This document shows positions 1-47,243 of a stretch of DNA of 47,243 bases, one piece after another. The notes below the pieces were generated by a model. It was not told the DNA's origin and made no database searches. It worked only from the letters and a program-made list of their open reading frames with translations. The DNA lies in contig NZ_JAENHL010000009.1 in NCBI RefSeq assembly GCF_016595235.1, positions 1 to 47,243 of the forward strand. Reading direction: 5' to 3'. This DNA is from Taklimakanibacter albus. Lineage in GTDB: Bacteria > Pseudomonadota > Alphaproteobacteria > Rhizobiales > Aestuariivirgaceae. The translations under genes and the position numbers were made by a program. Within the stretch, counting starts at the first letter, position 1, and the number at the start of each line of letters is the position of its first letter.

Positions 1-14
1 AGACTCAAAATCTG
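1..14. repeat. attL: att core, left copy (attL)
   Basis: The 14 bases AGACTCAAAATCTG are repeated exactly at 47230-47243. They read as a tRNA anticodon arm: stem AGA/TCT around the 7-base loop CTCAAAA, which carries anticodon CAA (Leu). The following base G extends the 3' strand to TCTGG. The sequence after that (GCCCGACTACTC) is not tRNA-like, so the tRNA is not rebuilt on the phage side. Tyrosine integrases often use anticodon-loop cores, and one is encoded at 45139-46233. The host side lies outside the window and was not seen. Confidence 0.8.
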
Positions 15-23
15 GCCCGACTA

Positions 24-41
24 CTCTCATAAAGTTATCTA
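24..41 (+). promoter_or_regulatory. Phage promoter-like motif, copy 1
   Basis: CTCTCATAAAGTTATCTA, one of about 12 copies of a motif found upstream of + strand genes. It lies ten bases from the att core and ahead of the early gene at 78. The downstream string GAGCGCAATT is shared with the copy at 5775. Confidence 0.6.
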
Positions 42-77
42 TTTACTATATGAGCGCAATTAGAGGAACTACCATCG

Positions 78-281
78 ATGTTCTCGCAAAAACCATATCC
101 TACCGTATCTTCATCTAACTCACATTCGGCGTGGCGTGGCGATCCTGCCCTGAGACGGGCCAAGAGGCGCTTGAGGCTCACCGATGAGGGGGACTTCCAG
201 ACCGTTACCGTGCTCGTGGACGATCGGTCGGGCCTGAAGCTCAGCGTCCTTGAGAGCCGCGATCCGGCGATCGACTGGTAG
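78..281 (+). CDS. Hypothetical early protein, 67 aa
   Basis: No family is recognised. The 67-residue product is basic in the middle (an Arg/Lys-rich RRAKRRLRL stretch near residues 27-35) and has no membrane segment. A GAGGA Shine-Dalgarno-like sequence lies about 10 bases before the ATG. It is the first gene after the left att core and the motif at 24-41. The following gene starts 7 bases downstream, so the two are probably co-transcribed. Confidence 0.5.
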   Translation: MFSQKPYPTVSSSNSHSAWRGDPALRRAKRRLRLTDEGDFQTVTVLVDDRSGLKLSVLESRDPAIDW

Positions 282-2671: not shown

Positions 2672-3277
2672 ATGTCGTTAGTAATCTACAAGGACGGTAT
2701 CCTCGCGGCCGACAGCGGGTCGTGGTGGGGCAACATGCTTCACTCGAAGGGCGCCATCAAGCTGGGCCGCAAGGTCGTGAAGATCCTCAAGGGCACCGAG
2801 CAGCCCACCGAGGAGGTCATCCTCTATGGTGCTGCCGGCGATGATCCGGCCTTCACGCTGTTCTTCAAGCAGATCGAGGCGAGAAACTCCTTCGAGGACA
2901 TCCGCACGGGCCTCGAATACGATGAGCGCTTCACGAGGTTCAAGGACTTCACGGGCATCATCGTGCGCCAGACCGAGCCTCACCTGCCGTACCTCTTCTC
3001 CGATGGTGTGGTGCTTCGTGAAGATCCCGCAGAGCACTACGCCATTGGGGCCGCCAGCGAGTTCGCTCTTGGTGCCCTCGCGGCGGACGCTGATGTCACC
3101 GAAGCGGTCTTCCTTGCGTGTCTCAACACGACCGTGGCCCATGCACCCGTCCGATGGGTGAGCTTCGAGGAGGACGGCATCCAGGTGCGCAGCCAGATAT
3201 TCTTTAAGGACGTCAAGCTAGAGCCACGCGGCGAGTGCACCGTTGCCGATTACCACAAAGGCCGCGCAGGAGCCTAA
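2672..3277 (+). CDS. Proteasome beta/HslV-like Ntn-hydrolase fold protein
   Basis: The 201 residues follow the HslV/20S beta pattern. MSLVIYKDGILAADS corresponds to the first strands (VxxxxGxxxAAD), AIKLGRKVVKIL to the conserved lysine segment, YGAAGD to the central glycine-rich strand, and YAIGAASEFALGALAADADVTEAV to the typical GSG-x-AxGAL-Axxxx-AV helix. The N-terminal threonine nucleophile is absent; after Met removal residue 1 would be Ser. It may be inactive or use serine. Such proteins recur in phages with unknown substrate. It lies just upstream of the RNA polymerase gene. Confidence 0.65.
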   Translation: MSLVIYKDGILAADSGSWWGNMLHSKGAIKLGRKVVKILKGTEQPTEEVILYGAAGDDPAFTLFFKQIEARNSFEDIRTGLEYDERFTRFKDFTGIIVRQTEPHLPYLFSDGVVLREDPAEHYAIGAASEFALGALAADADVTEAVFLACLNTTVAHAPVRWVSFEEDGIQVRSQIFFKDVKLEPRGECTVADYHKGRAGA

Positions 3278-3284
3278 CACCAAT

Positions 3285-5771
3285 ATGCCATTTGACCCGA
3301 CGACCCATCCTCTGTGGGATCGTCAAGTTGAGCTCGAACGCTACATGCTCCAAGCCGGGGCTGAGCGTTTCCGGGAGCGCTTGAACGATGCCCGCACCAA
3401 AGACGAACTCACGCGCCTCAAGCCTTACAGGCGCCTCATGCAGGAGTGGATTGAGCCGATCACCAAAGGCGTCACCGAGTGGATCGAGGCCACAAAGAAG
3501 AAGCGTGGAGCCAAGCCCGTTGCCCTCAACTACGTGGACGCCCTTCCGCCCGAGATCCTGGCGTACATCACGTGCCGCACCGTGCTCGACCGTATCGCGG
3601 CCAACCGTCTGTTGCTCATCTCCGTAGCGGCCGACATCGGGCAGAACATCGAGTACGAGGCGATGATACGTGCCTGGGAAGACTCCGAGGACGAAGGCTT
3701 CGGGGGCCTCCAAGAGAACATGACACGGAGGCGATCCACTCCGATCCACAGGCGTCGGGTCAACATCAACCTCTTCAACAAGAAGGGCCGGCAATACGTT
3801 GACTGGGCGGACTGGCCCGATGATCACCGCAAGCACCTTGGGCTGGCCTGCGTGGATATCCTCGTGCGCTACACCAAGCAATTCGAGGTACGCCCCGAGA
3901 TGGTGGACCGCAAGTTCAAGAGCACGAAGAGCCCGCCCATGGTGCTTGCCCTGAAGAATGAGGCTATCGAGTGGATCTCTGATGCACTTGAGGTCGCCGA
4001 GATCTCGACGCCCCTCTACCTGCCTACCATCATGCCGCCCAAGAAGTGGAATGGCCCGCGTGATGGCGGTTATTACACGAACATCATAAGACGGCCCTTC
4101 CTGATCAGCTTCAAGACCTCGCAGGAGGAGGAGCGAGGGATGGCTATTGCGGACTTCGAGGCGCTCTCCATGCCGAACGTCTATAAGGCCGTGAACCACC
4201 TCCAGTCTGTCCCGTGGAAGATCAACAAGCGGATCCTCGCGGTGGCCCAGCGTGTCTTCGACCTCGACATTGGCACCGACAAGCTGAGCATCCCGAAGAA
4301 GGGCAAGGAGCAGCTTCCTCCACGCTATGCCGACCAGGACACCAACCCCGAGTCTCTGAAGAGGTGGAAGAAGGAGGCGTCAGTCGTCCACGGCAACAAC
4401 GCCAAGCGTATATCCAAGGCGGCCACTGCCCGGCGCAACCTCAACCTCGCGGCCCAACTCGCGGCCGAGGACAAGATATACTTCCCCCACATGCTCGACT
4501 TCCGGGGGCGCCTCTACCCGATCCCCGTTGCGCTCCAGCCTCAAGGCAACGACCTGGCGCGAGGCTTGCTCACCTTCGCGGAGGGCAAGAAGATCTCCAA
4601 GGAGGCCGGCACTAATGGCTGGCTCGGGATCCAGCTCGCCAACAGTTGGGGCAACGACAAGGTTAGCAACGAGGAGCGCCTTGAGTGGGTCGAAGAGTAT
4701 CGCCCCAAGTGGGAGCGCATCGCGGCCGATCCTTTTGATGATCGCTCGTGGATGACCTGCGACAACCCGTGGCAAGCCCTCGCGGCTATCTTCGAGATAG
4801 TGGACTACTGGAAGCACGGCGATGGCTTCGTCTCATCGCTTCCCATCCGCGTCGATGGTACCTGCAACGGCATCCAGCATCTCTCGGCCATGCTCAGGGA
4901 CTCCGTGGGTGGCGCCTCGGTGAACCTAATCCCCGGCGATGTCCCCCGAGACATCTACCAGGAGGTGGCCGACCTCGTGCAAGCCCAGATTGGGAAGCTT
5001 GATGATCCCATCGCGAAGACCTGGATGCGGATGTGCAACGGGCGGCTCCCAAGGTCCGTCACTAAGCGGCCCGTCATGATCCTGCCCTATGGCGGCACTC
5101 GCAATGCCTACACCACGTACACCTTGAAGTGGATCAAAGAGAACGATCCCCACGAGAACTTCATCCCGAAGGAAGAACGCTTCGCCCACGCCAAGTGGCT
5201 GGCGCACATCATGTGGGACGTTGTGGGCGGCTACTTGCTGCGCCCCCAGGAGGTCATGACGTGGATCAAGCAGTGTGCCCGTGTTGCCTCGCGGGGCCAC
5301 AAGAGGGCTCTCTACTGGCGCACACCAATCGGCTTCTACGTCAGGCACTTCTACGGGAAGCGGAAGATGATGCGGCTGGATACACTTCTTGATGGGAAGC
5401 GCCTCCAGATCGCGAACTGGAAGACAACCGCAGAGCTTAACAACGCGGACGTCCTCACGGCGATCTCTCCGAACTTCGTGCACTCGCTTGATGCCTCGGC
5501 CCTCATGAGCACGATCCTACGGGTTCGAGAGCAAGGTGTCCGCTACATCACAACCATCCACGACAGCTTCGGGGCTCTCGCGGCCGACATGTGGACTGTG
5601 CACGACGCTCTTCGGGATTGTTTCATCGAGACATATAAAGAGTGTCCCTTGACGGAGTTCCGCACGGCTTGCGCTGACGTTGCGAGATCCGACAAGGACC
5701 TGCCTGAGGTACCGCCGAAGGGAAGCCTGGACCTAGAGGGCGTCCGCGAGAGCACCTACTTCTTTGCCTAA
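3285..5771 (+). CDS. T7-type DNA-directed RNA polymerase
   Basis: Single-subunit RNA polymerase of 828 residues (T7 gp1 is 883). FRGRLYPIP and PQGNDLARG match the T7 N-terminal/palm region. Motif A is DGTCNGIQH (catalytic Asp524), motif B is KRPVMILPYGG (Lys594, Tyr602) and motif C is IHDSFG (Asp760). The protein ends STYFFA, like the T7 C-terminal aromatic foot. It transcribes phage genes from its own promoters. The ATG at 3285 has AGGAG 12 bases upstream; an in-frame TTG at 3243 would overlap the previous gene by 35 bases. A promoter-like motif follows at once at 5775. Confidence 0.97.
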   Translation: MPFDPTTHPLWDRQVELERYMLQAGAERFRERLNDARTKDELTRLKPYRRLMQEWIEPITKGVTEWIEATKKKRGAKPVALNYVDALPPEILAYITCRTVLDRIAANRLLLISVAADIGQNIEYEAMIRAWEDSEDEGFGGLQENMTRRRSTPIHRRRVNINLFNKKGRQYVDWADWPDDHRKHLGLACVDILVRYTKQFEVRPEMVDRKFKSTKSPPMVLALKNEAIEWISDALEVAEISTPLYLPTIMPPKKWNGPRDGGYYTNIIRRPFLISFKTSQEEERGMAIADFEALSMPNVYKAVNHLQSVPWKINKRILAVAQRVFDLDIGTDKLSIPKKGKEQLPPRYADQDTNPESLKRWKKEASVVHGNNAKRISKAATARRNLNLAAQLAAEDKIYFPHMLDFRGRLYPIPVALQPQGNDLARGLLTFAEGKKISKEAGTNGWLGIQLANSWGNDKVSNEERLEWVEEYRPKWERIAADPFDDRSWMTCDNPWQALAAIFEIVDYWKHGDGFVSSLPIRVDGTCNGIQHLSAMLRDSVGGASVNLIPGDVPRDIYQEVADLVQAQIGKLDDPIAKTWMRMCNGRLPRSVTKRPVMILPYGGTRNAYTTYTLKWIKENDPHENFIPKEERFAHAKWLAHIMWDVVGGYLLRPQEVMTWIKQCARVASRGHKRALYWRTPIGFYVRHFYGKRKMMRLDTLLDGKRLQIANWKTTAELNNADVLTAISPNFVHSLDASALMSTILRVREQGVRYITTIHDSFGALAADMWTVHDALRDCFIETYKECPLTEFRTACADVARSDKDLPEVPPKGSLDLEGVRESTYFFA

Positions 5772-5774
5772 ATG

Positions 5775-5792
5775 CTCTCATAAAGTGATCTA
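5775..5792 (+). promoter_or_regulatory. Phage promoter-like motif, copy 3
   Basis: CTCTCATAAAGTGATCTA, four bases after the RNA polymerase stop. This is the position where T7 has its first class II promoters. It is followed by a structured leader. Confidence 0.65.
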
Positions 5793-5967
5793 ATCACTAA
5801 GTGAGCGCAATTCCCTCACTGTAGATGACACACACCGACCACGTTCCGTCCCCTCGCGTGGCTCCAGATGGGTCATCTCAAAGTCCTCGGTGTTCGAGCC
5901 CTCCCGCTCCTCCCCGCATCCCCCAAGGGTTCGGCACCGAGGCACCTATTCTCAAACGGAGAGCCGC
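5793..5967 (+). promoter_or_regulatory. Structured 5' leader of the SSB operon
   Basis: The 175 non-coding bases contain perfect inverted repeats in series: AGTGAG 5800-5805 with CTCACT 5815-5820; AGATGAC 5823-5829 with GTCATCT 5872-5878, enclosing CCACG 5839-5843 with CGTGG 5857-5861; and CCTCGGTG 5885-5892 with CACCGAGG 5935-5942. TCTC 5950-5953 can also pair with GAGA 5959-5962 in the ribosome binding site. GGCACCGAGG (5933-5942) recurs exactly in the leader at 43841-43850. Folding is inferred from pairing only. Open frames here have no supporting features. Confidence 0.5.
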
Positions 5968-9227: not shown

Positions 9228-9513
9228 CTTCAAGGACCTCCGTGGCGTCGAGATCATCGTGGGCGACATCCTGTGGCACCCGAAGCGCGTCAGCTCAGCG
9301 ATGTGGCTCGATGCCAAGCGTGTCGTCTCGATCGATGAGAAGGGCGTGAAGACTGTCCCTGCGGATGCTGCACCGGGCTACGCCCCTCGGCTCCTCAACA
9401 TCCCGCGCTACTGCGTGGTGGATCTCGATGCCCGCAAGAACGGCTTCCCGAATGAGCAGGAGGTTGCCGCCGAGAACGTGGCCGCCGGGCAATACGCGAA
9501 GGCCAAGCTTTGA
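9220..9513 (+). CDS. Hypothetical protein, 97 aa
   Basis: Not recognised. The first part looks like a small beta-barrel (VEIIVGDILWHPKR, KRVVSIDEKGVKTVP), with a helical C-terminus rich in alanine. It overlaps both neighbours and directly precedes the primase-helicase. Confidence 0.5.
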   Translation: MPSFKDLRGVEIIVGDILWHPKRVSSAMWLDAKRVVSIDEKGVKTVPADAAPGYAPRLLNIPRYCVVDLDARKNGFPNEQEVAAENVAAGQYAKAKL

Positions 9514-11135
9514 GTGCCATCAAAGCGCCGTGCCCCCAATGTGGAAGCCCCGATAACCTGAAGATCTACGATGATGGGCATGAGCATTGCTGGTCGGCCG
9601 GGTGCGCGTACCACAAGGCTAGTCCCCACGGCGCAGACGACGAGAGACTCGAACTCTCGACATTACCACGCAGGGCCGATCTCATCCCCACGGGAAGCTT
9701 TGAGGACCTCCCAAAACGCAAGCTCAAGGCCGAAACCCTGCGCCGCTACGGCTATTTCCTCCATAAGGATGCCGGCGAGATTGTCCATGTGGCCCCCTAT
9801 TACAGCCAAGACGGCGAGCTTTGCGTTCAGAAGATACGCAAGGCCGACAAGACGTTTCCCACGATTGGCGGCTCAACGACGCCCTGCAAGCTGTTCGGAC
9901 AGCAAGTATTCGGCGAGAGGTTCGACAAGCGCCTGGTCGTGACCACTGGCGAGATAGACGCCATGTCGGTTGCCCAGGTGATGAACTTCAAGTGCGCCTC
10001 GGTGTCTGTTGGTGGAGGAGATGGCGCCGCCGCCAAGCACCTCAAGGCCAACTACAGGTGGGTTGACCGCTTCAGCGAGATCGTCCTCTTCTTCGACAAC
10101 GACGAGTCGGGCCAGAAGGCGGCCACGGAGTGCGCCCAGCTCTTCCAGGTCGGCAAGGTAAAGCTCGCCAAGGTCAATGAGACCCGCAAGGACGCCTCAG
10201 GCTGTCTCCAGGCCAACAAGCCAGGGGAGATCGAGGAGGCGATCTATTCGGCCGAGACGTGGAAGCCCAAGGGCATCGTCAACGCTGCGGACTGCCTTGA
10301 GGACGTGACCGCCGATGAGGTTGCTCTCCGAGGCTACGACTGGCCTTGGGCCGGACTCAATGCCGCGACCATGGGGATCCAAGACGCCACGGTCATCTAC
10401 CTCCTGGCCGGCGCGGGTGTCGGCAAGACCACAGGCCTCTTCCACATCGAGTACACGCTCCTCAAGCAAGGCGTGGTGATCGGCCACCTTGGCTTCGAGG
10501 ACGTCCGTGCGGATGTCATGTTGGGCATCATGAGTGTTCACGCCTCCAAGCGGCTCACCATCACGCCGACACCGAAGGAAGAACGCGCGGCCCTGCACAA
10601 GGAGCTGTTCTCTTCCGGCAAGTTCTGGATGTTCGATCCGGAGACGGCCGAGTGGGGCATGAAGGCCATCATCGGGTACATCTACTACCTGGTGAAGGCC
10701 CTCGGGTGCCGGCTCGTGGTGGTCGATCCCCTGAGCTTCATCATCGCCGGCATGGAAGATCGGGATGAGCGCCGCGCGATCGACTGGGTGACTATGGTCC
10801 TCGCGAAGGCCTCCAAGGAACTCAGCGTCCCGATCGTCATCTCGCACCACCTCACGCGGCCTGAAGGCACCAGCCACGAGGAAGGCGGCCAGATCTCCCT
10901 CAAGCAGGCTCGCGGCTCCAACTCGATCGGGCAGTTCGCCAACGTGGTGATCGGCATGGAGCGCAACCAGCAAGCCGAGGACCCCCAGGCGGCCAACGAT
11001 GTCGTCATCAGGATCCTGAAGAACCGCCGTCAAGGCAAGACCGGCATAGCCACAACCCTGAGGTTCGATGAAGCCACGGGAAGACTCAACGAAATAGCAA
11101 GCGGAGGTACGACATTTGGCCCCGCCGAATATTGA
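9510..11135 (+). CDS. DNA primase-helicase, T7 gp4-like
   Basis: The 541-residue protein (T7 gp4 is 566) carries all three gp4 modules. A zinc-binding N-terminus has Cys8-x2-Cys11 and Cys27-x4-Cys32. A TOPRIM primase domain has VTTGEIDAMSV and the acidic FFDNDESG. A RecA-like DnaB-family helicase has Walker A GAGVGKTT (Lys306), Walker B LVVVDPLS, and SHHLTRP, RGSNSIGQ and KNRRQGKTG. It unwinds DNA and makes primers for the phage polymerase. The second zinc pair is spaced x4 instead of the T7 x2. The start is a TTG overlapping the previous stop, forced because the zinc motif begins at once. Confidence 0.95.
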   Translation: MSAIKAPCPQCGSPDNLKIYDDGHEHCWSAGCAYHKASPHGADDERLELSTLPRRADLIPTGSFEDLPKRKLKAETLRRYGYFLHKDAGEIVHVAPYYSQDGELCVQKIRKADKTFPTIGGSTTPCKLFGQQVFGERFDKRLVVTTGEIDAMSVAQVMNFKCASVSVGGGDGAAAKHLKANYRWVDRFSEIVLFFDNDESGQKAATECAQLFQVGKVKLAKVNETRKDASGCLQANKPGEIEEAIYSAETWKPKGIVNAADCLEDVTADEVALRGYDWPWAGLNAATMGIQDATVIYLLAGAGVGKTTGLFHIEYTLLKQGVVIGHLGFEDVRADVMLGIMSVHASKRLTITPTPKEERAALHKELFSSGKFWMFDPETAEWGMKAIIGYIYYLVKALGCRLVVVDPLSFIIAGMEDRDERRAIDWVTMVLAKASKELSVPIVISHHLTRPEGTSHEEGGQISLKQARGSNSIGQFANVVIGMERNQQAEDPQAANDVVIRILKNRRQGKTGIATTLRFDEATGRLNEIASGGTTFGPAEY

Positions 11136-11985: not shown

Positions 11986-12224
11986 GCACACACAGCGGAC
12001 TTCCTGTCGCCGGCTATAAGCCGCAGTCCTCCGACAGGGTAAACGTCGTGAACGCCAACAAGCAGGTCGAGGAAGTTGTTCTCAGGCAGCTCGACGCTAT
12101 GAAGGATGACCCCTCGATCGACCAGCGGTGGCTCGCGATAGGCCGTACTCAAATCGAGCAGGGCTTCATGGCTGTCAATCGAGCCGTCTTCCAACCAGGC
12201 CGCATTAAGCTCGCCACCGACTGA
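11982..12224 (+). CDS. acb2-like: Acb2/Tad1-type cyclic-nucleotide sponge candidate
   Basis: The 80-residue protein has the helical-hairpin pattern of the Acb2/Tad1 family. GYKP at residues 11-14 is followed by VNANKQVEE, a central D-Q-R-W-L-A-I helix and the diagnostic C-terminal GFMAVNRAVFQP. From memory, Acb2 binds cyclic nucleotides through Tyr11 and Lys26; here Tyr12 and Lys27 keep the same 15-residue spacing. Family members bind signals of CBASS and related defence systems and so stop effector activation. Binding by this protein is inferred, not shown. The gene overlaps both the preceding membrane protein and DNA polymerase. Confidence 0.75.
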   Translation: MSTHSGLPVAGYKPQSSDRVNVVNANKQVEEVVLRQLDAMKDDPSIDQRWLAIGRTQIEQGFMAVNRAVFQPGRIKLATD

Positions 12225-14374
12225 TGGGCAAACGCACCCTGGTGTATGACGTTGAGGGCAACGGCCTCCTGAAGGCCACCCGCAATATCCCCGCCATGAC
12301 CAAGCTCCACTGCCTCGCCGTGGAGGACGCCTACAGTGACGACGCCTGGTTCTTCCCGCCCGACCGCATCAAGGAGGGCATTGAGTTCCTCCAGGATGAG
12401 GGTGAGCTGACGATCGCCCACAACGGCGCCGACTACGACCACCGGGCCATCAAGCACCTTAACCCGTGGTGGAAGGCCCCCAAGATCCTCGACACCCTCA
12501 TCATCTGCCGGATGGTGTGGCCGGCCGAGACCCTCATGGACCGCGACTACAAGCTGTTCCTCAATCATAAGATGCCCGGCAAGCTCCTCAAGCGGCAGTC
12601 CATCGAGGCCTGGGGCTATCGCCTCGGGATCCACAAGGTTGGTGCCGACATCACGGACTGGACCAAGTACACCGACTACATGGGCGAGCGCTGCGTCTCA
12701 GACGTGAAGGTGAACAAGGCCCTGTGGCTGCTCGCGAGGAAGCGCCTCGGGTGGGACCCAAAGAACCCGCCTGAAGATGGCTTCATCTGGTCCGAGTTCT
12801 GTGTGGACCTGGAGCACCGCGTGGCCGAGCTGATGCGGGAGCAGGAAGACACGGGCTTCAAGCTCGACAAGCCGAAAGCCATACGGCTCGCCAAGGACCT
12901 TGGCAACGCTCAGGCGGACATTGAGGAAGCTCTCGGCCGTGCGTTCCCTGCGTGGTGGCAACCTCTCGATGATCCCAAGGTCGGCCGCCGTGCGCCTCGG
13001 GCCATGAAGGAGAAGCTAACGCATCTGCCTGATGTGACGATCCCGAGGAAGAGCGAGAAGACCGGCAAAGAGCTGAAGCCTTATGTTGGGCCTCCAGTTG
13101 CCGAATACACACCGGAAGCCCCCTTCGTTCGCATCAAGCGCATGAGCTTCAATGCCAGCTCTAAGGACCACCTTGGTGAGCGCCTGGTCGCCGAGTACGG
13201 ATGGCGGCCCACGAAGTTCTCCCCGAAGACTGGCAAGCCGACACTTGATGAAGGCGTCGTCGCGGAGATCCCTGAGCACATCCTTCCGCCTGGCGTGAAG
13301 AAGATGCTCCAGAATTACTTCGTCATTGCCAAGACTCGCGGGACCGTCTCGATCGGCAACAAGTCGTACCTTGGGCTGGTGAATGAGGCGACAGGACGGA
13401 TCCACGGCAGGTGCGATCCCCTCGGCACCATCACAATGCGTGGCGCCCACAAGGACCCGAACCTGGGGAACGTCGCCAGCGTTGAACTCAATGAGGTCAA
13501 AGATGCGAACGGGAAGGTTGTCTCCAAGGAGCCCATCAAGGGCGTTGACGGTGGCTACGGCTGGGAGTCCCGAGATCTCTTTACCGTGGATGAGGGCAAC
13601 GAGCTTACCGGCACCGACGCTAGCGGACTTGAGCTGCGGGACCTGGGGCATCGCCTTCATCCCTTCGACAAAGGGGCATTCACCAAGCGCGTGTCTGATC
13701 CCAGCCTCGACATTCATGAGGAAAACTCGAAGCTAACCGGGCTGAGCCGTAAGGACACCAAGACGACCACCTACAAGACGCTCTACGGCTCAGGGCCGCT
13801 TCCGATCGGCATCGACGTTGGCGTCACACCCGAAGAGCTGCCCGAGCTGCTCACCTCGAAGGAGCTTAACGGCTACTTGCGGTACATGCAGCGCCGAGAC
13901 GGCGAGAAGTATGTGCGTCCTGACGACATGACCTGTGCGCTCATCGCCAAGGGCTCCCGCGTCAAGAAGAAGTTCGAGTCGGGCATTGAGGGCCTTATGC
14001 CCTTGAAGCTCGCCATCACGGCCACCGCCAAGCGCCAGAAGTGGCTCGAAGGGCTGGATGGCCGCAAGATCTTTGTGCGCAAGGAACACGCGGCGCTCAA
14101 CTCTCAGCTCCAATCCGACGGTGCCATCATCTGCAAGCTGTGGATGGTGCTCACGCATCGCAACCTGAAGGCCCAAGGTCTCGTGCCTGGCGTGGACTTC
14201 AAGCAAGTCGCATGGGTGCACGATGAACTCCAGATCGAACATAAGGCGGGCCTTGGGCCTGTCATCGGCAAAGCCTCAAGGGAAGCCATCGAGAAAGCCG
14301 GCGAGATCCTCAAAGTCCTCTGCCCCCTCGCCTCAGAGCACAAGACAGGACGCACATGGGCCGAAACCCACTAG
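12224..14374 (+). CDS. DNA polymerase, T7 gp5-like (family A)
   Basis: The 716-residue protein (T7 gp5 is 704) has an active 3'-5' exonuclease signature: DVEGNG with Asp9 and Glu11, HNGADYD, and an exo III element YMGERCVSDVKVN. The polymerase motifs are A, TDASGLELRDL (Asp465); B, RKDTKTTTYKTLYG (Arg509, Lys513, Tyr517); and C, VHDELQ (His666, Asp667, Glu668). All key residues are present. It replicates the phage genome with the primase-helicase and probably a host processivity factor. The ATG overlaps the stop of the preceding gene by one base. Confidence 0.96.
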   Translation: MGKRTLVYDVEGNGLLKATRNIPAMTKLHCLAVEDAYSDDAWFFPPDRIKEGIEFLQDEGELTIAHNGADYDHRAIKHLNPWWKAPKILDTLIICRMVWPAETLMDRDYKLFLNHKMPGKLLKRQSIEAWGYRLGIHKVGADITDWTKYTDYMGERCVSDVKVNKALWLLARKRLGWDPKNPPEDGFIWSEFCVDLEHRVAELMREQEDTGFKLDKPKAIRLAKDLGNAQADIEEALGRAFPAWWQPLDDPKVGRRAPRAMKEKLTHLPDVTIPRKSEKTGKELKPYVGPPVAEYTPEAPFVRIKRMSFNASSKDHLGERLVAEYGWRPTKFSPKTGKPTLDEGVVAEIPEHILPPGVKKMLQNYFVIAKTRGTVSIGNKSYLGLVNEATGRIHGRCDPLGTITMRGAHKDPNLGNVASVELNEVKDANGKVVSKEPIKGVDGGYGWESRDLFTVDEGNELTGTDASGLELRDLGHRLHPFDKGAFTKRVSDPSLDIHEENSKLTGLSRKDTKTTTYKTLYGSGPLPIGIDVGVTPEELPELLTSKELNGYLRYMQRRDGEKYVRPDDMTCALIAKGSRVKKKFESGIEGLMPLKLAITATAKRQKWLEGLDGRKIFVRKEHAALNSQLQSDGAIICKLWMVLTHRNLKAQGLVPGVDFKQVAWVHDELQIEHKAGLGPVIGKASREAIEKAGEILKVLCPLASEHKTGRTWAETH

Positions 14375-17555: not shown

Positions 17556-19232
17556 ATGGACTACGACCACAAGGATCGCGGCGAGTACAGCCTCGGCGAA
17601 CCCGCAGCGGCGCTCTACGGCCGGCTTAAGACCAAGCGTGACGCCGTGCTCAGCACCGCCAGGGAGATGGCAACGATCACCATCCCCTCCCTGTTCCCGC
17701 CCGAAGGCTACCAGTCTGGCGACCAGATCGGCGAGAACAACCAGTCAGTCGGCGCACAGTGCATCAACACGCTTGCCTCCAAGCTGATGTACGTTGCGTT
17801 CCCGCCCAATCGGCCGGCCATGCGGTTTGAGCTCGAAGAGTACAAGCTCAAGAAGGAGAATGACGGCCTCTCGGAGGACGACAAGCAAGTCCTTCTCTCA
17901 AAGCTCAATGTGGCCCTCGCCTCCCTGGAGGTCACACACAAGCGGCGCATGGAAGCAACGCGGGTCCGCATGGCCTACGTCACCTACATGAAGCAGCTCG
18001 AAGCTGGCGGCAACGCAGCGTGGGAGCACGAGAAGATTGGCGATCCGGTTGTGCACCGCATGGACACCTACGTGGTCAAGCGGAACAAACGCGGCGAGCA
18101 GCTCTTCGTTATCCTTGAGGAGACGCTTCTCTTGGAGGATCTCCCCAAGGAGTTCGCCGATCGGATGCGTGAGGAGCGCAAGATCGACTTCGAGGGTAAG
18201 GCACCGTGGGAGTGCGAGATCACGACTCACCGTGTCTGCAAGACTGTGGGCAGCAAGGATGCGCCGCGCTACATCGAGTGGTCCGAGTATGAGGGGGAGA
18301 TCATCCCCGGCTCAAAGGAAGACCAGGACGACCTCCCGCAGATCTACGCCGGCTGGTTGATCCCCCAGTACGGGGAAGACTGGGGCCGCTCCTACGCCGA
18401 GGAGTATCGTGGCGACCATTACATCGTGGAGAACGGCTACGCGGCCCTTCAAGACGGCATGGCGGCGGCTGCGTGGACCCTCTTCGGTGTGAAGCCGGGC
18501 GGCTCGACCAAGCTGGCGGATCTCATCAAGGCGCGTAACCTCAAGTGGGTCACGGGTGACCTAGTCAATGACGTCACAGTGCTCCGCGTGGACAAGGGCA
18601 GTGACTTCGCCTTCGTGGACAACACCACGGCTAAGGCTGAGCGCCGCCTCGCAAGGGCGTACCTCATGGTCTCCTCCGTGCAGCGTGATGCCGAGCGTGT
18701 CACGGCCGAGGAGTGGGTACAGCTCACGGGCGAGCTGGACGAGGCCATGGGTGGTCTCCACTCGGTGATTGCCCAGACGATCCAGCGCCACGTGGTCATG
18801 AAGTTCCTCGCCCTCCACAAGAAGGAGGAGCCGGATCTCCCGGACTTCGAGAAGATCGCAGGCGCCGATGTGGTCCGCACGGAGATCGTCACGGGCGTGG
18901 ATGCCTTGAGTCGCAGCCATGAAGGCGCGTCTCTGCGTCGTCTGCGTCGTGCTCTCGTTGAGGATCTCGGCCCAGAAGGTGCTGCCCGCGTCATGAGCGA
19001 CATCGAGTATGCCCGCCGCTTGGCCGCATCCGAAGGTGTCCAGACCGCAGGCCTTATCCTCGAAGACAAAGACATCCAGGCGAACGACCAATCGAAACTC
19101 CAGACGGGCATCGCCGCACAGGCTGCACCTGGTGTCATCGAGAAGGTCGCCGGCACGATGGCCGAGGGGGGCAAGGAAGCCCTCCTGCAACAACAAGCTC
19201 AACAGAATGGAGTAATGCCAAATGGCAACTAA
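17556..19232 (+). CDS. Portal (head-tail connector), T7 gp8-like
   Basis: The 558-residue protein (T7 gp8 is 536) occupies the T7 position upstream of scaffold and capsid. Typical features: an N-terminal LYGRLKTKRDAVLSTAREMATITIPSLFPP segment, IGENNQSVGAQCINTLASKLMYVAFPPNRP, a central WLIPQYGEDWGRSYAEEY and a C-terminal helical part ending in a Gln-rich tail. Twelve copies would form the DNA channel between head and tail. The gene overlaps scaffold by 11 bases. Confidence 0.93.
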   Translation: MDYDHKDRGEYSLGEPAAALYGRLKTKRDAVLSTAREMATITIPSLFPPEGYQSGDQIGENNQSVGAQCINTLASKLMYVAFPPNRPAMRFELEEYKLKKENDGLSEDDKQVLLSKLNVALASLEVTHKRRMEATRVRMAYVTYMKQLEAGGNAAWEHEKIGDPVVHRMDTYVVKRNKRGEQLFVILEETLLLEDLPKEFADRMREERKIDFEGKAPWECEITTHRVCKTVGSKDAPRYIEWSEYEGEIIPGSKEDQDDLPQIYAGWLIPQYGEDWGRSYAEEYRGDHYIVENGYAALQDGMAAAAWTLFGVKPGGSTKLADLIKARNLKWVTGDLVNDVTVLRVDKGSDFAFVDNTTAKAERRLARAYLMVSSVQRDAERVTAEEWVQLTGELDEAMGGLHSVIAQTIQRHVVMKFLALHKKEEPDLPDFEKIAGADVVRTEIVTGVDALSRSHEGASLRRLRRALVEDLGPEGAARVMSDIEYARRLAASEGVQTAGLILEDKDIQANDQSKLQTGIAAQAAPGVIEKVAGTMAEGGKEALLQQQAQQNGVMPNGN

Positions 19233-36871: not shown

Positions 36872-37068
36872 TGAAGATCGTCCAGGAGATCAACCTCAGG
36901 ATCAAGGCGCTGGAGAGACAGAAGGCCGAGATCCAGAATAAGTGCTCTCATCCAGGCCACACTCGTACCGCGAGGGCAAACACAGGGAACTACGACCCCT
37001 TCAGCGATCGGTACTGGTACGACTGCAAGTGCACCCTCTGTGAGAAGTTCTGGCGAGAAGACCAGTGA
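36871..37068 (+). CDS. Zinc-ribbon-like small protein, 65 aa
   Basis: Has Cys and His in CSHPGH (residues 25-30) and CKCTLC (about residues 51-56), a plausible zinc site, with a helical basic N-terminus. Function unknown. It overlaps the spike-base-like gene by one base and the large terminase by four. Confidence 0.5.
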   Translation: MKIVQEINLRIKALERQKAEIQNKCSHPGHTRTARANTGNYDPFSDRYWYDCKCTLCEKFWREDQ

Positions 37069-38900
37069 TCCAACCTGAAGCCTTCTCTCCAAGCGCCGCT
37101 AAGGCCGCCATCAAGTCCGAGACCGCACTGACGGGGATGAGCGCCAGGGAGGTCGATGCGAAGATCCGCAAGGACTTCCGCTACTTCCTCTACCTGATGT
37201 GGAAGCATCTCGGCCTCCCGGAGCCGACTCGCCTCCAGTACAACATCGCGTATTGGCTGCAGCATGGCCCTGATCGCCAAATCATCATGGCGTTCCGTGG
37301 TGTGGCGAAGTCGTGGATCACTGCGGCCTACGTCCTGTGGCTGCTCTACTGCGATCCCCAGAAGAAGATCCTCGTGGTCTCGGCCTCGCTCAAGCGCTCC
37401 ATCGCCTTCACCAACTTCTGCCTCATGCTCATCCGCCAGTGGCCGCTCCTGGAGCACCTGGCGCCGAGGATGGACCAGAGGCAGTCGAGCGTCATGTTCG
37501 ACGTGGGGCCAGCACTGCCCGATCAGTCACCGAGTGTCCATGCGGCCGGCATCACGGGACAGATCGTGGGCTTCCGCGCGGATGAGATCGTCCCCGATGA
37601 CATCGAGACGAACGACAACTCCAAGACGACCGTCATGCGTGACACCTTGAAGAACAACGTCAAGGAGTTCGATGCGATCATCAAGCCGGGCGGCAAGATC
37701 AAGTACCTCGGGACGCCGCAGACGGAGAACTCGATCTACATCACGATCATTGCTCGCGGTTACACTTGCCGCATCTGGCCGGCGAGATACCCCGACGAGA
37801 AGCAGGTTGCCGCCTATGGGGACAAGCTCGCGCCATTCATCAAGAAGATCGCCCAGTCGGAGATCAAGCTTGTAGGGAAGAGCACGGAGCCAACACGCTT
37901 CAGCGATGAGGATCTCTTCAAGCGCGAACTGTCGTGGGGCCGCTCAGGCTTCGCCCTCCAGTTCATGCTCGATACAAGCCTTGCGGACGGCGATCGGTAT
38001 CCCATCAAGCTACGCAACCTCATCGTCATGTCCTTGGATCCCAAGAAGGGACCCGAGAGCCTGGCGTGGAGCAACGACGCCTACTATGCCCACAAGGAGC
38101 TGCCTGTTCTGGGGATGGACGGCGATGGCTACTATGGGCCTGTGTCCGAAGAGAAGCGGACCATGTCGCCCTACAACTCGACCATCATGATCATCGACCC
38201 CTCAGGTGGTGGCGCCGACGAGACGGGCTTCTCAATCATGTCCGAGCTGCATGCCCGACTGTTCCTGCACAAGACGGGCGGCTTCCTGGACGGCTTCGGG
38301 CCGGCGACACTCCAGGCACTCGCTCAGTTGTGCGTTGAGTATCGCGTCAACAGGTGTCTCATCGAGAGCAACTTCGGTGACGGCATGTGGACGGCCCTCT
38401 TCCGGCCGAAGCTCGTGGCCGCCTGGGAGAAGCACAATAAGTCGGTCCAGAAGGCGCTCCACGGCGGCACCACCATTGAGGAGGTCACCGCAAGCCGTGC
38501 CACGAAGGAGGAGCGCATCATCTCGGCCCTCGCGTCTGTCGTGAAGGCCCACCAGCTCGTGGTCAACACCGATGCCATCCGCGAGGACTACGAGAGCCTC
38601 TCGAAGATCGACGGCGAGAACGACAGGCAGAGCTACTCGGCGTTCTACCAGATGTCGCGGATCACCAATGAGAAGGACTGCCTGGCCCACGAGGACCGCC
38701 TGGAGACGATTTCTGTGGGTGCCCTACACTATGCGCCAGCCCTCGGCGTGGCCCCTGAAGAGTCCCTACAGGCCGCTGAGGAGCGCCGCATGGATGAGGA
38801 GCTTGAGGCCCTATTCGCGGAGGCCGACGAGATCCAGGGCGTTGGGCGGGCTCCTGGGGGCCTCAGGCCGGGGCTTCGAGGGGGTGGCCTAAGGCACTGA
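37065..38900 (+). CDS. Terminase large subunit, T7 gp19-like
   Basis: The 611-residue protein (T7 gp19 is 586) has the T7-type ATPase start IIMAFRGVAKSWITAAYVLWLL with the variant Walker A, followed by KKILVVSASLKRS. The RNase H-like nuclease domain has IMIIDPSGGGADETGFSIM with its metal-binding Asp, and LIESNFGDGMW. A Gly/Arg-rich tail ends the protein. It packages and cuts concatemers. GTG start overlapping the previous stop. It is the last gene before the repeat-rich non-coding region. Confidence 0.95.
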   Translation: MIQPEAFSPSAAKAAIKSETALTGMSAREVDAKIRKDFRYFLYLMWKHLGLPEPTRLQYNIAYWLQHGPDRQIIMAFRGVAKSWITAAYVLWLLYCDPQKKILVVSASLKRSIAFTNFCLMLIRQWPLLEHLAPRMDQRQSSVMFDVGPALPDQSPSVHAAGITGQIVGFRADEIVPDDIETNDNSKTTVMRDTLKNNVKEFDAIIKPGGKIKYLGTPQTENSIYITIIARGYTCRIWPARYPDEKQVAAYGDKLAPFIKKIAQSEIKLVGKSTEPTRFSDEDLFKRELSWGRSGFALQFMLDTSLADGDRYPIKLRNLIVMSLDPKKGPESLAWSNDAYYAHKELPVLGMDGDGYYGPVSEEKRTMSPYNSTIMIIDPSGGGADETGFSIMSELHARLFLHKTGGFLDGFGPATLQALAQLCVEYRVNRCLIESNFGDGMWTALFRPKLVAAWEKHNKSVQKALHGGTTIEEVTASRATKEERIISALASVVKAHQLVVNTDAIREDYESLSKIDGENDRQSYSAFYQMSRITNEKDCLAHEDRLETISVGALHYAPALGVAPEESLQAAEERRMDEELEALFAEADEIQGVGRAPGGLRPGLRGGGLRH

Positions 38901-39162: not shown

Positions 39163-39694
39163 TAAAGTGACCCGGATGCTCCCCTAGGGGTCGATCATTT
39201 GAGAGGTCACCTTTACGTGCGAGCGGTCGCGATCCCCCCATAGGGGTCCCAAGGTGCGCCGGAAGGGCCTAATCAAGGGGGTGCGGGCACCTAGCGCCAC
39301 ATCCAGCGCCGCCACGCCACGCCTAACCCATTGATTTCCTTGTAGTTCCGAACAGATTTGTAATCTGATTGTGCGCCACATTAGGCTCTAGCTGCCAGTT
39401 TGGCCCTCAAGTTGCGGCAAGACGCAAAGGGCTCCCCTGAGAGGGCACATCATTGAGCACTGCTAGGTCACTTCGCGCGGCTAGAGCATGGGGGCACGAC
39501 CACAGGCCCAACCTCAGGCCCGCCATCATGTACAGCCGCAGGCCTCGCCACCATGTCCACAACCTCAGGCCCTCGCCACCAGGCCTCGCCATCATGTGCC
39601 GCGATCATTAGGGCACGGCATTAGGTCTGAGGCCTTAGGTCTGCCATTGGGTGCGGGGTGATGAAAGCGCCAATATATAAAGTGAGCCGGACGC
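39163..39694 (+). repeat. Imperfect direct repeat pair TAAAGTGAxCCGGAxGC
   Basis: TAAAGTGACCCGGATGC at 39163-39179 and TAAAGTGAGCCGGACGC at 39678-39694 differ at two positions and are 515 bases apart, start to start. The first part, TAAAGTGA, also occurs in several promoter-like copies. They might mark a terminal-repeat edge or be partial promoters. Confidence 0.45.
39515..39597 (+). repeat. Short degenerate tandem repeat, CAGGCC-CGCCA-CATGT type
   Basis: Four related units: 39515-39531, 39539-39556, 39566-39580 (shortened) and 39580-39597. The unit is close to CAGGCCTCGCCACCATGT. Spacing is irregular, from 14 to 27 bases. Similar in kind to the short repeats flanking T7 genome ends. Confidence 0.55.
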
Positions 39695-44697: not shown

Positions 44698-44728
44698 CTA
44701 CCACATCGTGTTTAATTGACTTTGTGGT
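44698..44728 (+). promoter_or_regulatory. Promoter-like copy 12 overlapping a possible operator
   Basis: CTACCACATCGTGTTTAA at 44698-44715 is a divergent copy of the motif. It overlaps an inverted repeat ACCACA 44700-44705 with TGTGGT 44723-44728 and a TTGACT at 44715-44720 that could serve as a host -35 element. It lies just ahead of the regulator gene, so autoregulation is plausible. Confidence 0.45.
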
Positions 44729-44750
44729 TACAAACCAAGGGGAATTCCAG

Positions 44751-45113
44751 ATGTCAGAGGGTAAGGCGAACATGACACGCTTACTCAGTGGCTTGCATAA
44801 ACTAAGGGACGAAGCACCTGACATGCCTATAGCCGTTCTCGTGACTTTCTTCGGGATCGGCGAGTATGCAGCAGAGCGCTCAGAACAAGATCCCATCTCG
44901 ATCCGCGAGTTGGCCGAGAAGATCGGACTGCCTTATTCATCAACCTCCCGCCATATCCGCTACCTGGGAGACATGTTCTCGCCCGATAAGCGGGGACTAG
45001 GGTGGATCGACACGGACATAGTCCAGCAAGATCGCCGCCAGAAGACCGCCTTTCTGACACCGAAGGGTAAGAGGGTGCTCAGCACCTTCAAGGCCACAGT
45101 GGGCCTAGAGTAG
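44751..45113 (+). CDS. MarR-like winged-helix regulator, candidate lysogeny switch
   Basis: The 120-residue protein has a MarR-type layout: helix MPIAVLVTFFGIGEYAAE, then DPISIRELAEKIGLPYSSTSRHIRYLGDMF as helix-turn-helix with recognition helix YSSTSRHIRYL, a wing (GLGWIDTDIVQQDRRQKTAFLT) and a final helix (PKGKRVLSTFKATVG). It lies 25 bases upstream of the integrase in the same direction, with a palindromic site ahead of it. T7 has no such gene. It is the best candidate for a repressor or for controlling integration. Confidence 0.7.
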   Translation: MSEGKANMTRLLSGLHKLRDEAPDMPIAVLVTFFGIGEYAAERSEQDPISIRELAEKIGLPYSSTSRHIRYLGDMFSPDKRGLGWIDTDIVQQDRRQKTAFLTPKGKRVLSTFKATVGLE

Positions 45114-45138: not shown

Positions 45139-46233
45139 GTGCCCATCAGACGGCGGGACAATAGCTTTCAGGTTACCGTTGAGAACGCCAACGCGATGCA
45201 AGGCTTCAAGCGCATCCGTAAGTCGTATCGAGACGAAGCCGAAGCGGTCGCCAAAGAGGCAGAGATAACGAAGGCCGTTGAAACCTTCGGACATTGGCCC
45301 GTCAAGAAGGACGCGAAACCACTCCCCACTCCTCTCTCCAGCAAGAAGACTTCCCTCGCCACAGACATACCGAACACCATAGACGGCACCATCAAGGAAG
45401 CCGCGACGCTCGCCCTCAAGACACATTGGGCCGGCAAGCGCTACGCCGCCAAGGTCCCCAGCTATGTGGACTACGTGGTGACCTTCCTCACTCAGTCCTG
45501 CGGAAAGCGCAACCTGGACGACCTCATCACGAAGGACATTGACGACTTGGTCGCGAAGTGCCGCGCCGATAAGAACAGCGCCTCGACCATCAACGCCAAG
45601 CTGTCGGCACTGCGAGTCATCTTCAAGGTAGCAGCCGGAAGGACGCCGCCGCTCTGCTCCCGCTCGATCACCATCAAGAGAGTTCCAGCTTCGAGGGCCA
45701 AGAAGTGGTGGCTCAACCTGGAGAACCTTGAGAAGGCCCTAGCGTATTGCCGCAAGGAGGCCGGCCTCATGATCCTCGGGGACTACATCGAGTTCATCTG
45801 CAACTCCGGGATCCGCGTCGAGGAAGCCCTCCGCGCCCGCAAGGATGACTTTGAGAACCTCGGCAAGGTTAATCACACCAAGATGCTGGTGGACGGCACG
45901 AAGACGGAAGGCGCCCGCAAGTGGATCGCCCTCAACGAGACCGCTGCGGCCATCGCCAGGCGCCGGCTCAGGAGCTGTGACGTCCTGTTCCCTATCAGCT
46001 ACGGCCAACTGGCTGGCGCCTGGAATGACGTGCGGTCCCACCTTGGCTTCTCGGATGTCCCCACGGCGACACTCAAGGCCCTTCGCCGGACGTTCGCCAA
46101 GATCACTGAGCTTCGCGGGATGCCCACGAGCATGCTCCAGAGGATCCTGCGGCACCAGAGCATTACTACAACGCAAGGCTACCTTGACTTGGTGGGCACG
46201 AATGATGAGGATGCTGCGAGGAGGTACCTGTGA
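45139..46233 (+). CDS. int: Tyrosine recombinase integrase
   Basis: The 364-residue protein has an N-terminal arm-binding-like part, a SAM-like core-binding domain (about residues 85-165) and a catalytic domain. Catalytic residues: Arg226 (CNSGIRVEEAL), Lys255 (DGTKTEGAR), Arg316 (KALRRTF), His339 (LRHQSITTTQGY) and nucleophile Tyr348. The usual His in box II (HxLR) is Lys313 here. It should recombine attP with a tRNA-Leu core. GTG start. Integrases also occur in some T7-like marine cyanophages and pelagiphages. Confidence 0.93.
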   Translation: MPIRRRDNSFQVTVENANAMQGFKRIRKSYRDEAEAVAKEAEITKAVETFGHWPVKKDAKPLPTPLSSKKTSLATDIPNTIDGTIKEAATLALKTHWAGKRYAAKVPSYVDYVVTFLTQSCGKRNLDDLITKDIDDLVAKCRADKNSASTINAKLSALRVIFKVAAGRTPPLCSRSITIKRVPASRAKKWWLNLENLEKALAYCRKEAGLMILGDYIEFICNSGIRVEEALRARKDDFENLGKVNHTKMLVDGTKTEGARKWIALNETAAAIARRRLRSCDVLFPISYGQLAGAWNDVRSHLGFSDVPTATLKALRRTFAKITELRGMPTSMLQRILRHQSITTTQGYLDLVGTNDEDAARRYL

Positions 46234-46625
46234 TCACCGCCAAGCAGCTTCTCGAAGCCTTCTTCAAGAACCAGGGCACAGCGTTCGTCTCCTATGAGAG
46301 CCACGCAAAGGTGGTGCTCGACGGAACCTTTGACTTCGACCAGATCGCCGCCACGATGAACGAGATGTTCGGCCCACGCGGCACCAACGATCATCCCCTC
46401 CTCGGCAACATGCCAGAACCCGTCATACCGTGGCCCGTAAAGGAGCCCACTAAGAGCGGCGAAGAGCCCGAGGTGGAGATCGAGTGGGTTAACCCGATGC
46501 CGGCGCACACCTTCAGCGAGTGGGGGAAGGACCCGACATACTGCGACATCTGCGGCCAACACATGCTGGCGCCCGTCCACAAGTACTTCGACGGGGTCAT
46601 ACCTCTCGTGAGGCGCGACGGCTAA
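46230..46625 (+). CDS. Hypothetical protein with Cys/His cluster, 131 aa
   Basis: The 131-residue protein has a C-terminal Cys/His cluster (HTFSEWGKDPTYCDICGQHMLAPVHK) suited to one zinc, and a Pro/Glu-rich middle. The first 50 residues look helical (AKQLLEAFFKNQGTAF). It overlaps the integrase by four bases, so it is probably co-translated with it. A directionality or accessory role is possible but unsupported. Confidence 0.5.
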   Translation: MITAKQLLEAFFKNQGTAFVSYESHAKVVLDGTFDFDQIAATMNEMFGPRGTNDHPLLGNMPEPVIPWPVKEPTKSGEEPEVEIEWVNPMPAHTFSEWGKDPTYCDICGQHMLAPVHKYFDGVIPLVRRDG

Positions 46626-46825
46626 TGGCCCTCAACACGAAGCTTCCCGATCGGTACTTCCCCCAGGCCTGGGCTATGCGCGAGCGCTTGATGTTTCGCC
46701 TCCTGGTATCGGAGAGCCGCCGCCTTAAGAAATACCGCCTGGCCGCTAGCTACGGTGCGTCGTGGGAGAGGCTTTGCGCGGACGCTACCTTCCAGCGCTA
46801 CCGTGCGAGGTTCAACCATGTTTGA
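46625..46825 (+). CDS. Small basic protein, 66 aa
   Basis: The 66-residue protein is rich in Arg and aromatic residues (RERLMFRLLVSESRRLKKYRLAASYG), helical, pI very high. Function unknown; size and charge would allow a recombination directionality factor. Its stop codon ends one base before the 3' CCA of the convergent tRNA gene. Confidence 0.5.
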   Translation: MALNTKLPDRYFPQAWAMRERLMFRLLVSESRRLKKYRLAASYGASWERLCADATFQRYRARFNHV

Positions 46826-46911
46826 TGGTGCCCCATGCCGGACTCGAACCAGCACGCCTTTTGGACACTTGATTTTGAGTCAAGCGCGTCTACCAATTCC
46901 GCCAATGGGGC
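46826..46911 (-). tRNA. trnL-CAA: tRNA-Leu (anticodon CAA)
   Basis: Read on the minus strand the 86 bases form a full class II tRNA. Acceptor GCCCCAT pairs with ATGGGGC, discriminator A, encoded CCA. The D arm contains GGTAGAC; the anticodon stem is CTTGA/TCAAG around the loop CTCAAAA with CAA at 46875-46877; a 14-base variable region holds GTCC/GGC; the T arm is GCTGG-TTCGAGT-CCGGC. All stems are intact. It shares GACTCAAAATC with the att core but has a different anticodon stem. It is the only minus-strand gene. Confidence 0.95.
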
Positions 46912-46932
46912 TCGCCATGGGGTCTAGCCGGG

Positions 46933-46961
46933 TGACTAGCCGAATGCTACATAAAGGGCAA
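46933..46961 (-). promoter_or_regulatory. Weak sigma70-like promoter for the tRNA
   Basis: On the minus strand TTGCCC (46956-46961) and TAGTCA (46933-46938) are 17 bases apart, ending about 21 bases before the tRNA 5' end. The -10 is a poor match. Proposed because the tRNA needs its own transcription on this strand. Confidence 0.25.
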
Positions 46962-47158
46962 TGCCCCAGAAGCGAAGCCCTCTCAAGATCCTCGGAATGC
47001 TGCTCATCATGGCAGTGGCGTTCTCGTGGTCGGCGTATCGCATGGACCAGGTGCTTGGCCTCGGGTGGATCTCTGGCGTTGACCAGTGTGCCGGCGTCAC
47101 AGCGCAGGACTGCAAGCTTCTCACCGATGCGGCCGACCGCCTGGCTGCGTCCCAATAG
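46961..47158 (+). CDS. Small exported-type protein, 65 aa
   Basis: The 65-residue protein has a basic start (MPQKRSPLKI) and a hydrophobic helix (LGMLLIMAVAFSWSA), then a polar domain with two cysteines (DQCAGVTAQDCKLL). It looks like a membrane-anchored or periplasmic protein. AAAGGG lies 3-8 bases before the ATG. In a lysogen it would lie at the prophage edge, where superinfection or fitness genes are often found; role unproven. Confidence 0.5.
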   Translation: MPQKRSPLKILGMLLIMAVAFSWSAYRMDQVLGLGWISGVDQCAGVTAQDCKLLTDAADRLAASQ

Positions 47159-47165
47159 AGTGTGG

Positions 47166-47181
47166 CGTGGCGTTCGCCACG
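47166..47181. other. Perfect hairpin beside attR
   Basis: CGTGGC-GTTC-GCCACG forms a six-base-pair stem with a four-base loop, eight bases after the last stop codon and about 50 before the att core. There is no T-run, so it may be a weak terminator or part of the attP arm region. Confidence 0.4.
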
Positions 47182-47229
47182 TGGCGGACTAACCCTCTGA
47201 AATTCAAGGAGAATGACCCCTAAACTAGA

Positions 47230-47243
47230 AGACTCAAAATCTG
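47230..47243. repeat. attR: att core, right copy (attR)
   Basis: Exact copy of bases 1-14. Upstream phage sequence (CCCTAAACTAGA) does not match a tRNA 5' anticodon strand beyond the core. In the circular phage the two copies collapse into one attP core flanked by CTAGA on the left and GCCCGAC on the right. Confidence 0.8.

Follow-up and report, generated by a model that had tools for sequence, protein, structure and literature searches.

A temperate T7-like phage in Taklimakanibacter albus splits the host tRNA-Leu(CAA) gene and probably replaces it with a copy of its own

Introduction

The term tRNA-dependent lysogeny was defined in PMC10865867, where, in the portions of the text available, its frequency outside actinobacteriophages is left open. 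A design in which the phage replaces a broken host tRNA gene has been described in T7-like phages of Alphaproteobacteria since at least 2019 (PMC8631192, PMC6811365 and PMC11476347, as far as their available text goes). The vTRX32-1-like Autographiviridae prophages of Rhizobium leguminosarum are T7-like and temperate and use a 12-bp att motif, CAGATTTAGGTT, in a host tRNA-Leu gene. They carry a tRNA-Leu of their own without the motif, which according to the authors replaces the broken gene and prevents integration into the phage itself (PMC8631192). The HTVC019Pvirus-type phage uv-Fonsiphage-EPL has an 11-bp core in a host tRNA-Leu gene and its own tRNA-Leu, said to replace the lost function, and ~5% of reads circularise the phage (PMC6811365). 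In the Lo5R7ANS-like prophages of Sinorhizobium meliloti AK21 and RU11/001, also T7-like, the host tRNA-Leu gene is broken centrally and the phage tRNA-Leu is ~80% identical to the host gene (PMC11476347). Here we describe a locus of this design in Taklimakanibacter albus.

Results

Integration site and contig junctions

The window analysed, a stretch of 47,243 nucleotides, is the whole of contig C9 of the T. albus genome (7.17 Mb, nine contigs), so that the 14-nt repeat AGACTCAAAATCTG found at both of its ends marks contig ends as well as att sites (Table 1). No further copy occurs elsewhere in the window at up to one mismatch, and 100 shuffles gave 0 matches. The final 104 nt of contig C8 are identical to window positions 1-104, and ahead of them stands a tRNA-Leu 5' half; the initial 104 nt of contig C3 are identical to positions 47140-47243 and are followed by a tRNA-Leu 3' half. 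Joined across the 14-nt core, the two flanks yield one 86-nt tRNA-Leu(CAA) with a full cloverleaf (ARAGORN), whose anticodon arm reads GCAGA-CTCAAAA-TCTGT. ARAGORN detected no tRNA at attL, at attR or at the joined attP, and the broken gene is therefore rebuilt at neither junction. A previous sequence-only reading had taken the end repeat for a tRNA-Leu(CAA) anticodon arm that neither phage flank continues, and had proposed that integration splits the host gene; the repeat search and ARAGORN bear out the first point, and the joining of the flanks, the check which that reading had suggested, bears out the second.

The junctions could also be an assembly artefact or a minor state, with the phage mainly extrachromosomal and the tRNA gene intact in most cells. 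Such an arrangement would fit the separation of the phage as a contig bounded by the core, and the fact that in no single contig does a junction have long sequence on both sides. Contigs C8 and C3, however, each join 104 nt of phage to a tRNA half, and these halves pair into one cloverleaf. In addition, C8 runs uncut through the core and an empty site is assembled nowhere, so that attB is probably rare. We accordingly give this reading hardly any weight.

The contig boundaries bear also on the state of the phage DNA. Contigs C5 and C6 likewise overlap by exactly 104 nt, and this length thus looks like the graph overlap of the assembler. The contig ends coincide exactly with the first and last core bases, with the 104-nt overlap, and a phage stretch running from the first to the last core base would be expected at the meeting point of attL, attR and a circular attP path. 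These boundaries point to the presence of circular phage DNA, too, in the sequenced sample.

Two congeners, genomes G002 and G004, display an intact tRNA-Leu(CAA) adjoining the same left flank, and neither has a match to the phage-type RNA polymerase family PF00940. The C3 flank reappears in G002 on the contig of the tRNA, ~4.7 kb past it (92% over 2043 columns); in G004 it was not matched beyond the tRNA within the 12 kb examined. At G002:C33, around 281700 (L101, 5691-5743), a decayed tRNA-Leu(CAA) 5' half is followed by the full 14-nt core and then by sequence like the left phage end. This site lies ~0.9 kb from the intact tRNA-Leu(CAA), its 53 nt are 90.6% identical to the C8-phage junction, and it may be what a related phage left behind after inserting there at an earlier time.

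Host tRNA complement

The genome contains 57 tRNA matches, of which 56 were typed by ARAGORN. The 57th (C7:8508-8655) reads as a Ser(GCT) with a 63-nt intron and carries the CTCAAAA loop on neither strand. The sole Leu(CAA) among the 57 is the prophage copy, in a genome judged 98.3% complete, where a missed copy is possible; within this scope, the expectation that the host has no second intact tRNA-Leu(CAA) holds. Six leucine tRNAs were identified: TAA, GAG, CAG, two TAG and the prophage CAA. The tRNA-Leu(UAA), located at C4:123927-124009, might decode UUG through wobble, a point against the explanation preferred below. One of the Leu(TAG) genes, at C4:661887-661960 (L055; 77 nt by ARAGORN), is oddly short for a leucine tRNA, whereas the other, at C6:614861, is normal. 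Near the start of contig C7, 12 tRNA matches, some of which score low, are clustered within 6 kb (C7:2856-8655; L042), the intron-bearing Ser(GCT) being the last of them; the cluster looks like the tRNA array of a mobile element.

Phage genes and integrase

The features of the window are presented in Table 1. By its Pfam and PHROG matches the phage has a single-subunit RNA polymerase along with T7-type genes for replication (primase/helicase and DNA polymerase), head (head-tail adaptor) and terminase, and so belongs with the T7-like (Autographiviridae-type) phages. The RNA polymerase is ~34% identical to those of LUZ100 and Lo5R7ANS. A string resembling CTCTCATAAAGTTATCTATT is repeated at window positions 24-61, ~640-668 and 5775-5812 (87% between the first and last; middle copy by eye). 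One copy sits just inside attL, and the string may be the phage polymerase's own promoter.

Table 1. Coordinates of the features of the window
Feature	Position	Strand	Evidence
att core copy, left end, AGACTCAAAATCTG	1..14	+	contig overlap with C8, flank joining, repeat search
Overlapping pair of GGCGTGGCG repeats near the left end, possible arm-type sites of the integrase	128..141	+	
T7-like single-subunit RNA polymerase	3243..5771	+	PF00940 E 5.5e-92; phrog_414 E 2e-226
DNA primase/helicase	9510..11135	+	phrog_239 E 5e-148
DNA polymerase	12224..14374	+	phrog_17 E 7e-94
Head-tail adaptor	17556..19232	+	phrog_449 E 7e-99
T7-type terminase	37065..38900	+	PF22530 E 2e-27
Possible transcription regulator, upstream of integrase	44724..45113	+	phrog_9665 E 2e-17; weak HTH matches
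Tyrosine integrase, divergent	45139..46233	+	Phage_integrase PF00589 E 6e-11; phrog_1 E 1.5e-32
Complete phage tRNA-Leu(CAA) with encoded CCA	46826..46911	-	ARAGORN
Single GGCGTGGCG repeat near the right end, possible arm-type site of the integrase	47164..47172	+	
att core copy, right end, AGACTCAAAATCTG	47230..47243	+	contig overlap with C3, flank joining, repeat search

The integrase is highly divergent. Its top identity to 54 other integrases is 27%, its end branch measures 4.87 and it belongs to no supported set of the tree, the group of LUZ100, Lo5R7ANS and related viral loci included. With the protein itself as query, no relatives were confirmed in genome contigs or viral contigs, and one weak phage match, to Bordetella phage BB8, covers 74% of the query at 30%. 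This lack of a supported place among T7-like integrases counts against the explanation preferred below. The repeat GGCGTGGCG occurs five times in the window against 0.86 expected, and the copies flanking attP on both sides may constitute integrase arm sites; two of the five lie far from att, at 39310-39323 on the minus strand.

The phage tRNA-Leu(CAA)

ARAGORN identifies a single tRNA in the window, the same intact, CCA-encoding tRNA-Leu(CAA) that had been recognised from the letters alone. It is inverted in relation to both the att core and the integrase, has an anticodon arm reading CTTGA-CTCAAAA-TCAAG, and agrees with the rebuilt host gene at 67 of 87 alignment columns. A search of 46600-47243 for a sigma-70-type promoter gave none, a result that says little for this host and is counted against the preferred explanation.

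The phage tRNA might serve lytic growth instead, by supplying codons or by replacing tRNAs cut in defence, its anticodon match being incidental and the host living on its tRNA-Leu(UAA). Phage tRNAs are often explained in this manner, according to the available text of PMC10865867, and the host does possess a tRNA-Leu(UAA). UUG is nevertheless rarer in the phage, with 5.3 per 1000 codons (45/8571), than in the host flanks, with 8.5 (62/7305), in a small sample of ORFs picked by length. Since the codon is no commoner in the phage, codon supply is an unlikely reason for the tRNA; together with the evidence from other phages given below, this makes a purely lytic role improbable.

Related prophages

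At the level of the order PF00940 matched 9 of 397 genomes, and at that of the class 4 of 385, with the T. albus genome counted in both, leaving 11 other positive genomes, one of which (G172) falls below the curated cut-off. The integration design was resolved in four of the 11 (G382, G707, G094 and G610), the remaining seven being G139, G130, G155, G268, G293, G677 and G172. In G382 a Leu(UAG) gene is interrupted at a 13-nt core, and in G707 a Leu(CAA) gene at a 15-nt core. In both, the host halves join into a full tRNA and the prophage carries its own tRNA with the anticodon of the broken gene, an agreement that argues against an incidental match. G094 and G610 present a 55-nt repeat in tRNA-Tyr and a 50-nt repeat in tRNA-Lys, respectively, which look like the ordinary kind. 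With two of the four resolved cases ordinary, the T7-like phage type alone does not predict the replacing design. In G139, a tRNA 5' half and an intact Leu(TAA) lie 9.9 kb apart. A T7-like phage contig of 44084 bases in G268 (C16; L082-L084) is bounded by a 15-nt repeat, GCCTAACGAAGTGTT; no tRNA was found there, and it is maybe a prophage with another kind of target.

Survey of viral loci

The best 80 of 358 viral loci with related integrases were surveyed using a query alignment headed by the G707 integrase. Because the viral loci came within reach through this alignment, the survey applies to G707-like integrases rather than to the lineage of the window. Among the 80 are many marine-type or metagenome contigs, in which a candidate att core by a tRNA is not proof of integration. 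Among these best 80 of 358, a T7-like RNA polymerase lies within the examined stretch in 63, a complete tRNA lies within 3 kb of the integrase in 24 (18 of 49 when integrases are clustered at 90% identity), 13 have a tRNA 3' half only and 43 have neither. L143 and L209 contain a displaced tRNA 3' half as well; half-like matches without CCA in L140 (at 51), L165 (at 5205) and L197 (at 11004) were dropped as chance.

All 24 complete tRNAs found in the best 80 of 358 loci are tRNA-Leu (18 TAA, 3 CAA, 2 TAG and 1 CAG), and in 14 of the 24 the anticodon loop of the tRNA recurs exactly within 60 nt past the tRNA's 3' end, compared with 0.35% of control windows. Such copies, like the anticodon agreement in G707 and G382, argue against a role in lytic growth only. 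In L140, L147, L154, L155 and L203 the loop copy starts right after the CCA of a complete tRNA-Leu(TAA), the att core being thus fused with the tRNA 3' end. On the integrase tree, the complete-tRNA label requires 15 changes; shuffled labels average 17.9, and 50 of 500 shuffles need as few. This barely clustered pattern fits repeated gain or loss, and could also reflect tRNAs missed near contig ends.

The tRNA-Leu of LUZ100 has been read as a possible remnant of imprecise excision (PMC10134795, in the text available). By analogy, the window tRNA would be a relic from a former host with no present role, and its foreign appearance, complete as it is yet identical to the host gene in only the columns counted above, would be in keeping with such an origin. 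The tRNA, however, has a complete cloverleaf with CCA, and a relic would not have to carry the anticodon of the broken gene, which is matched here and in both G707 and G382, and the restriction of complete tRNAs near related integrases to tRNA-Leu (24/24 in the best 80 of 358 loci) also speaks against it. We consider a relic very unlikely. No convincing att core was found near the tRNA-Leu of LUZ100 itself, a 9-nt match at 3916 being at about chance level. In L177 (~9956), ~110 nt separate a core-bearing tRNA-Leu 5' half from a complete tRNA-Leu(TAA) by a LUZ100-like integrase; this may be a LUZ100 relative that has integrated and follows the replacing design.

Similarity of the phage tRNA to the core

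The sequence-only reading had further claimed that the differing stem of the phage tRNA would stop the integrase from using it as a target, an escape already proposed for the Rhizobium phages (PMC8631192, available text). The phage tRNA and the core still have 11 contiguous nt in common, and the common cores of known tRNA-dependent cases measure 8-17 bp (PMC10865867, available text). Fifteen phages were compared, comprising 11 viral loci, the window, G707, G382 and Lo5R7ANS; the near-copies L142, L155 and L203 were left out, as were the 10 of the 24 loci in which the loop does not recur exactly within 60 nt past the tRNA. In all 15 the phage tRNA arm is not identical to the core, with a common run of 7-11 nt. 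This mismatch was not stronger than in shuffled pairs of the 15 phages (summed extra identity 33 against a mean of 37.9, P = 0.12). The claim is therefore not upheld as stated, and protection of the phage tRNA by mismatch is a possible effect.

Discussion

Proposed mechanism

We propose that a temperate T7-like phage has used its tyrosine integrase to enter the one tRNA-Leu(CAA) gene detected in the host, at a 14-nt core within the anticodon arm. The gene is cut into a 5' half (on C8) and a 3' half (on C3) and is restored at neither junction, and the complete tRNA-Leu(CAA) of the prophage would make up for the loss in the lysogen. The assembled DNA itself shows that the gene is split and not rebuilt, that no other CAA gene is detected and that the phage copy is intact. 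The insertion was presumably made by the window's own integrase; the phage tRNA would be expressed in the lysogen in place of the host gene, and lysogens would be expected to need it. The locus combines a tyrosine integrase, an attB in a host tRNA gene of which no other copy is detected, a short core without reconstruction and a cognate phage tRNA, all features of tRNA-dependent lysogeny, and we hold this explanation as a whole to be highly probable. Here the host may come to depend on a translation gene in a copy that the virus provides.

Taken with the survey, the locus suggests that temperate T7-like phages, whose group was for long regarded as strictly lytic, commonly follow this mode, and that their tRNA-Leu genes deserve to be read as lysogeny genes and not as cargo. 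We lean, with reservations, towards the view that replacing rather than rebuilding tRNA-Leu is widespread in these phages over UAA, CAA, UAG and perhaps CAG targets. The replacement would often be made by a compact cassette of integrase, complete tRNA-Leu and short att core, gained or lost many times. The LUZ100-type tRNA-Leu would then be a working part, and the window a separate arrival with a very divergent integrase. We found no paper that extends the replacing mode to temperate T7-like phages as a group, in a search of mainly openly available literature.

Comparison with known systems

Descriptions of the known systems below follow the available portions of each report. The actinobacteriophages Fionnbharth and Gaia share with the window a tyrosine integrase, a short core, the lack of reconstruction and a cognate tRNA (PMC10865867). 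Gaia targets tRNA-Leu-CAA, as here, and Fionnbharth carries its tRNA on the strand opposite the neighbour gene. They belong to another virus group and their hosts to another phylum; moreover, dependence was shown in Fionnbharth by deletion of the tRNA, whereas for the window phage it is a prediction. In the T7-like cyanophages P-SSP7 and S-TIP37 the integrase uses the host tRNA-Leu, as in the window. Their attP consists of matches to regions of the tRNA-Leu gene, a complete tRNA of their own is not mentioned in the text available, and stable lysogens were not found (PMC8776855).

The closest counterparts remain the T7-like phages of Alphaproteobacteria, and because the design was already described in them its novelty here is low. 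By our reading, the vTRX32-1-like motif is a Leu(UAG) arm, in contrast with the Leu(CAA) arm of the window; those prophages were induced and formed new lysogens (PMC8631192), whereas activity of the window phage is surmised. uv-Fonsiphage-EPL differs in its freshwater SAR11 host and its tRNA-Leu(TAG) (PMC6811365). Lo5R7ANS differs in its Leu(UAG) target, in a tRNA placed on the integrase strand and in the low identity of its polymerase noted above. Against this background, the T. albus prophage is a well-resolved case, in which both junctions are assembled, two congeners show the site intact and tRNAs were counted over the whole genome. What it adds to the known systems is Leu(CAA) as the target of a T7-like phage of this design, a divergent integrase and an inverted tRNA, together with two further genomes of the same design (G382 and G707) and the survey of viral loci.
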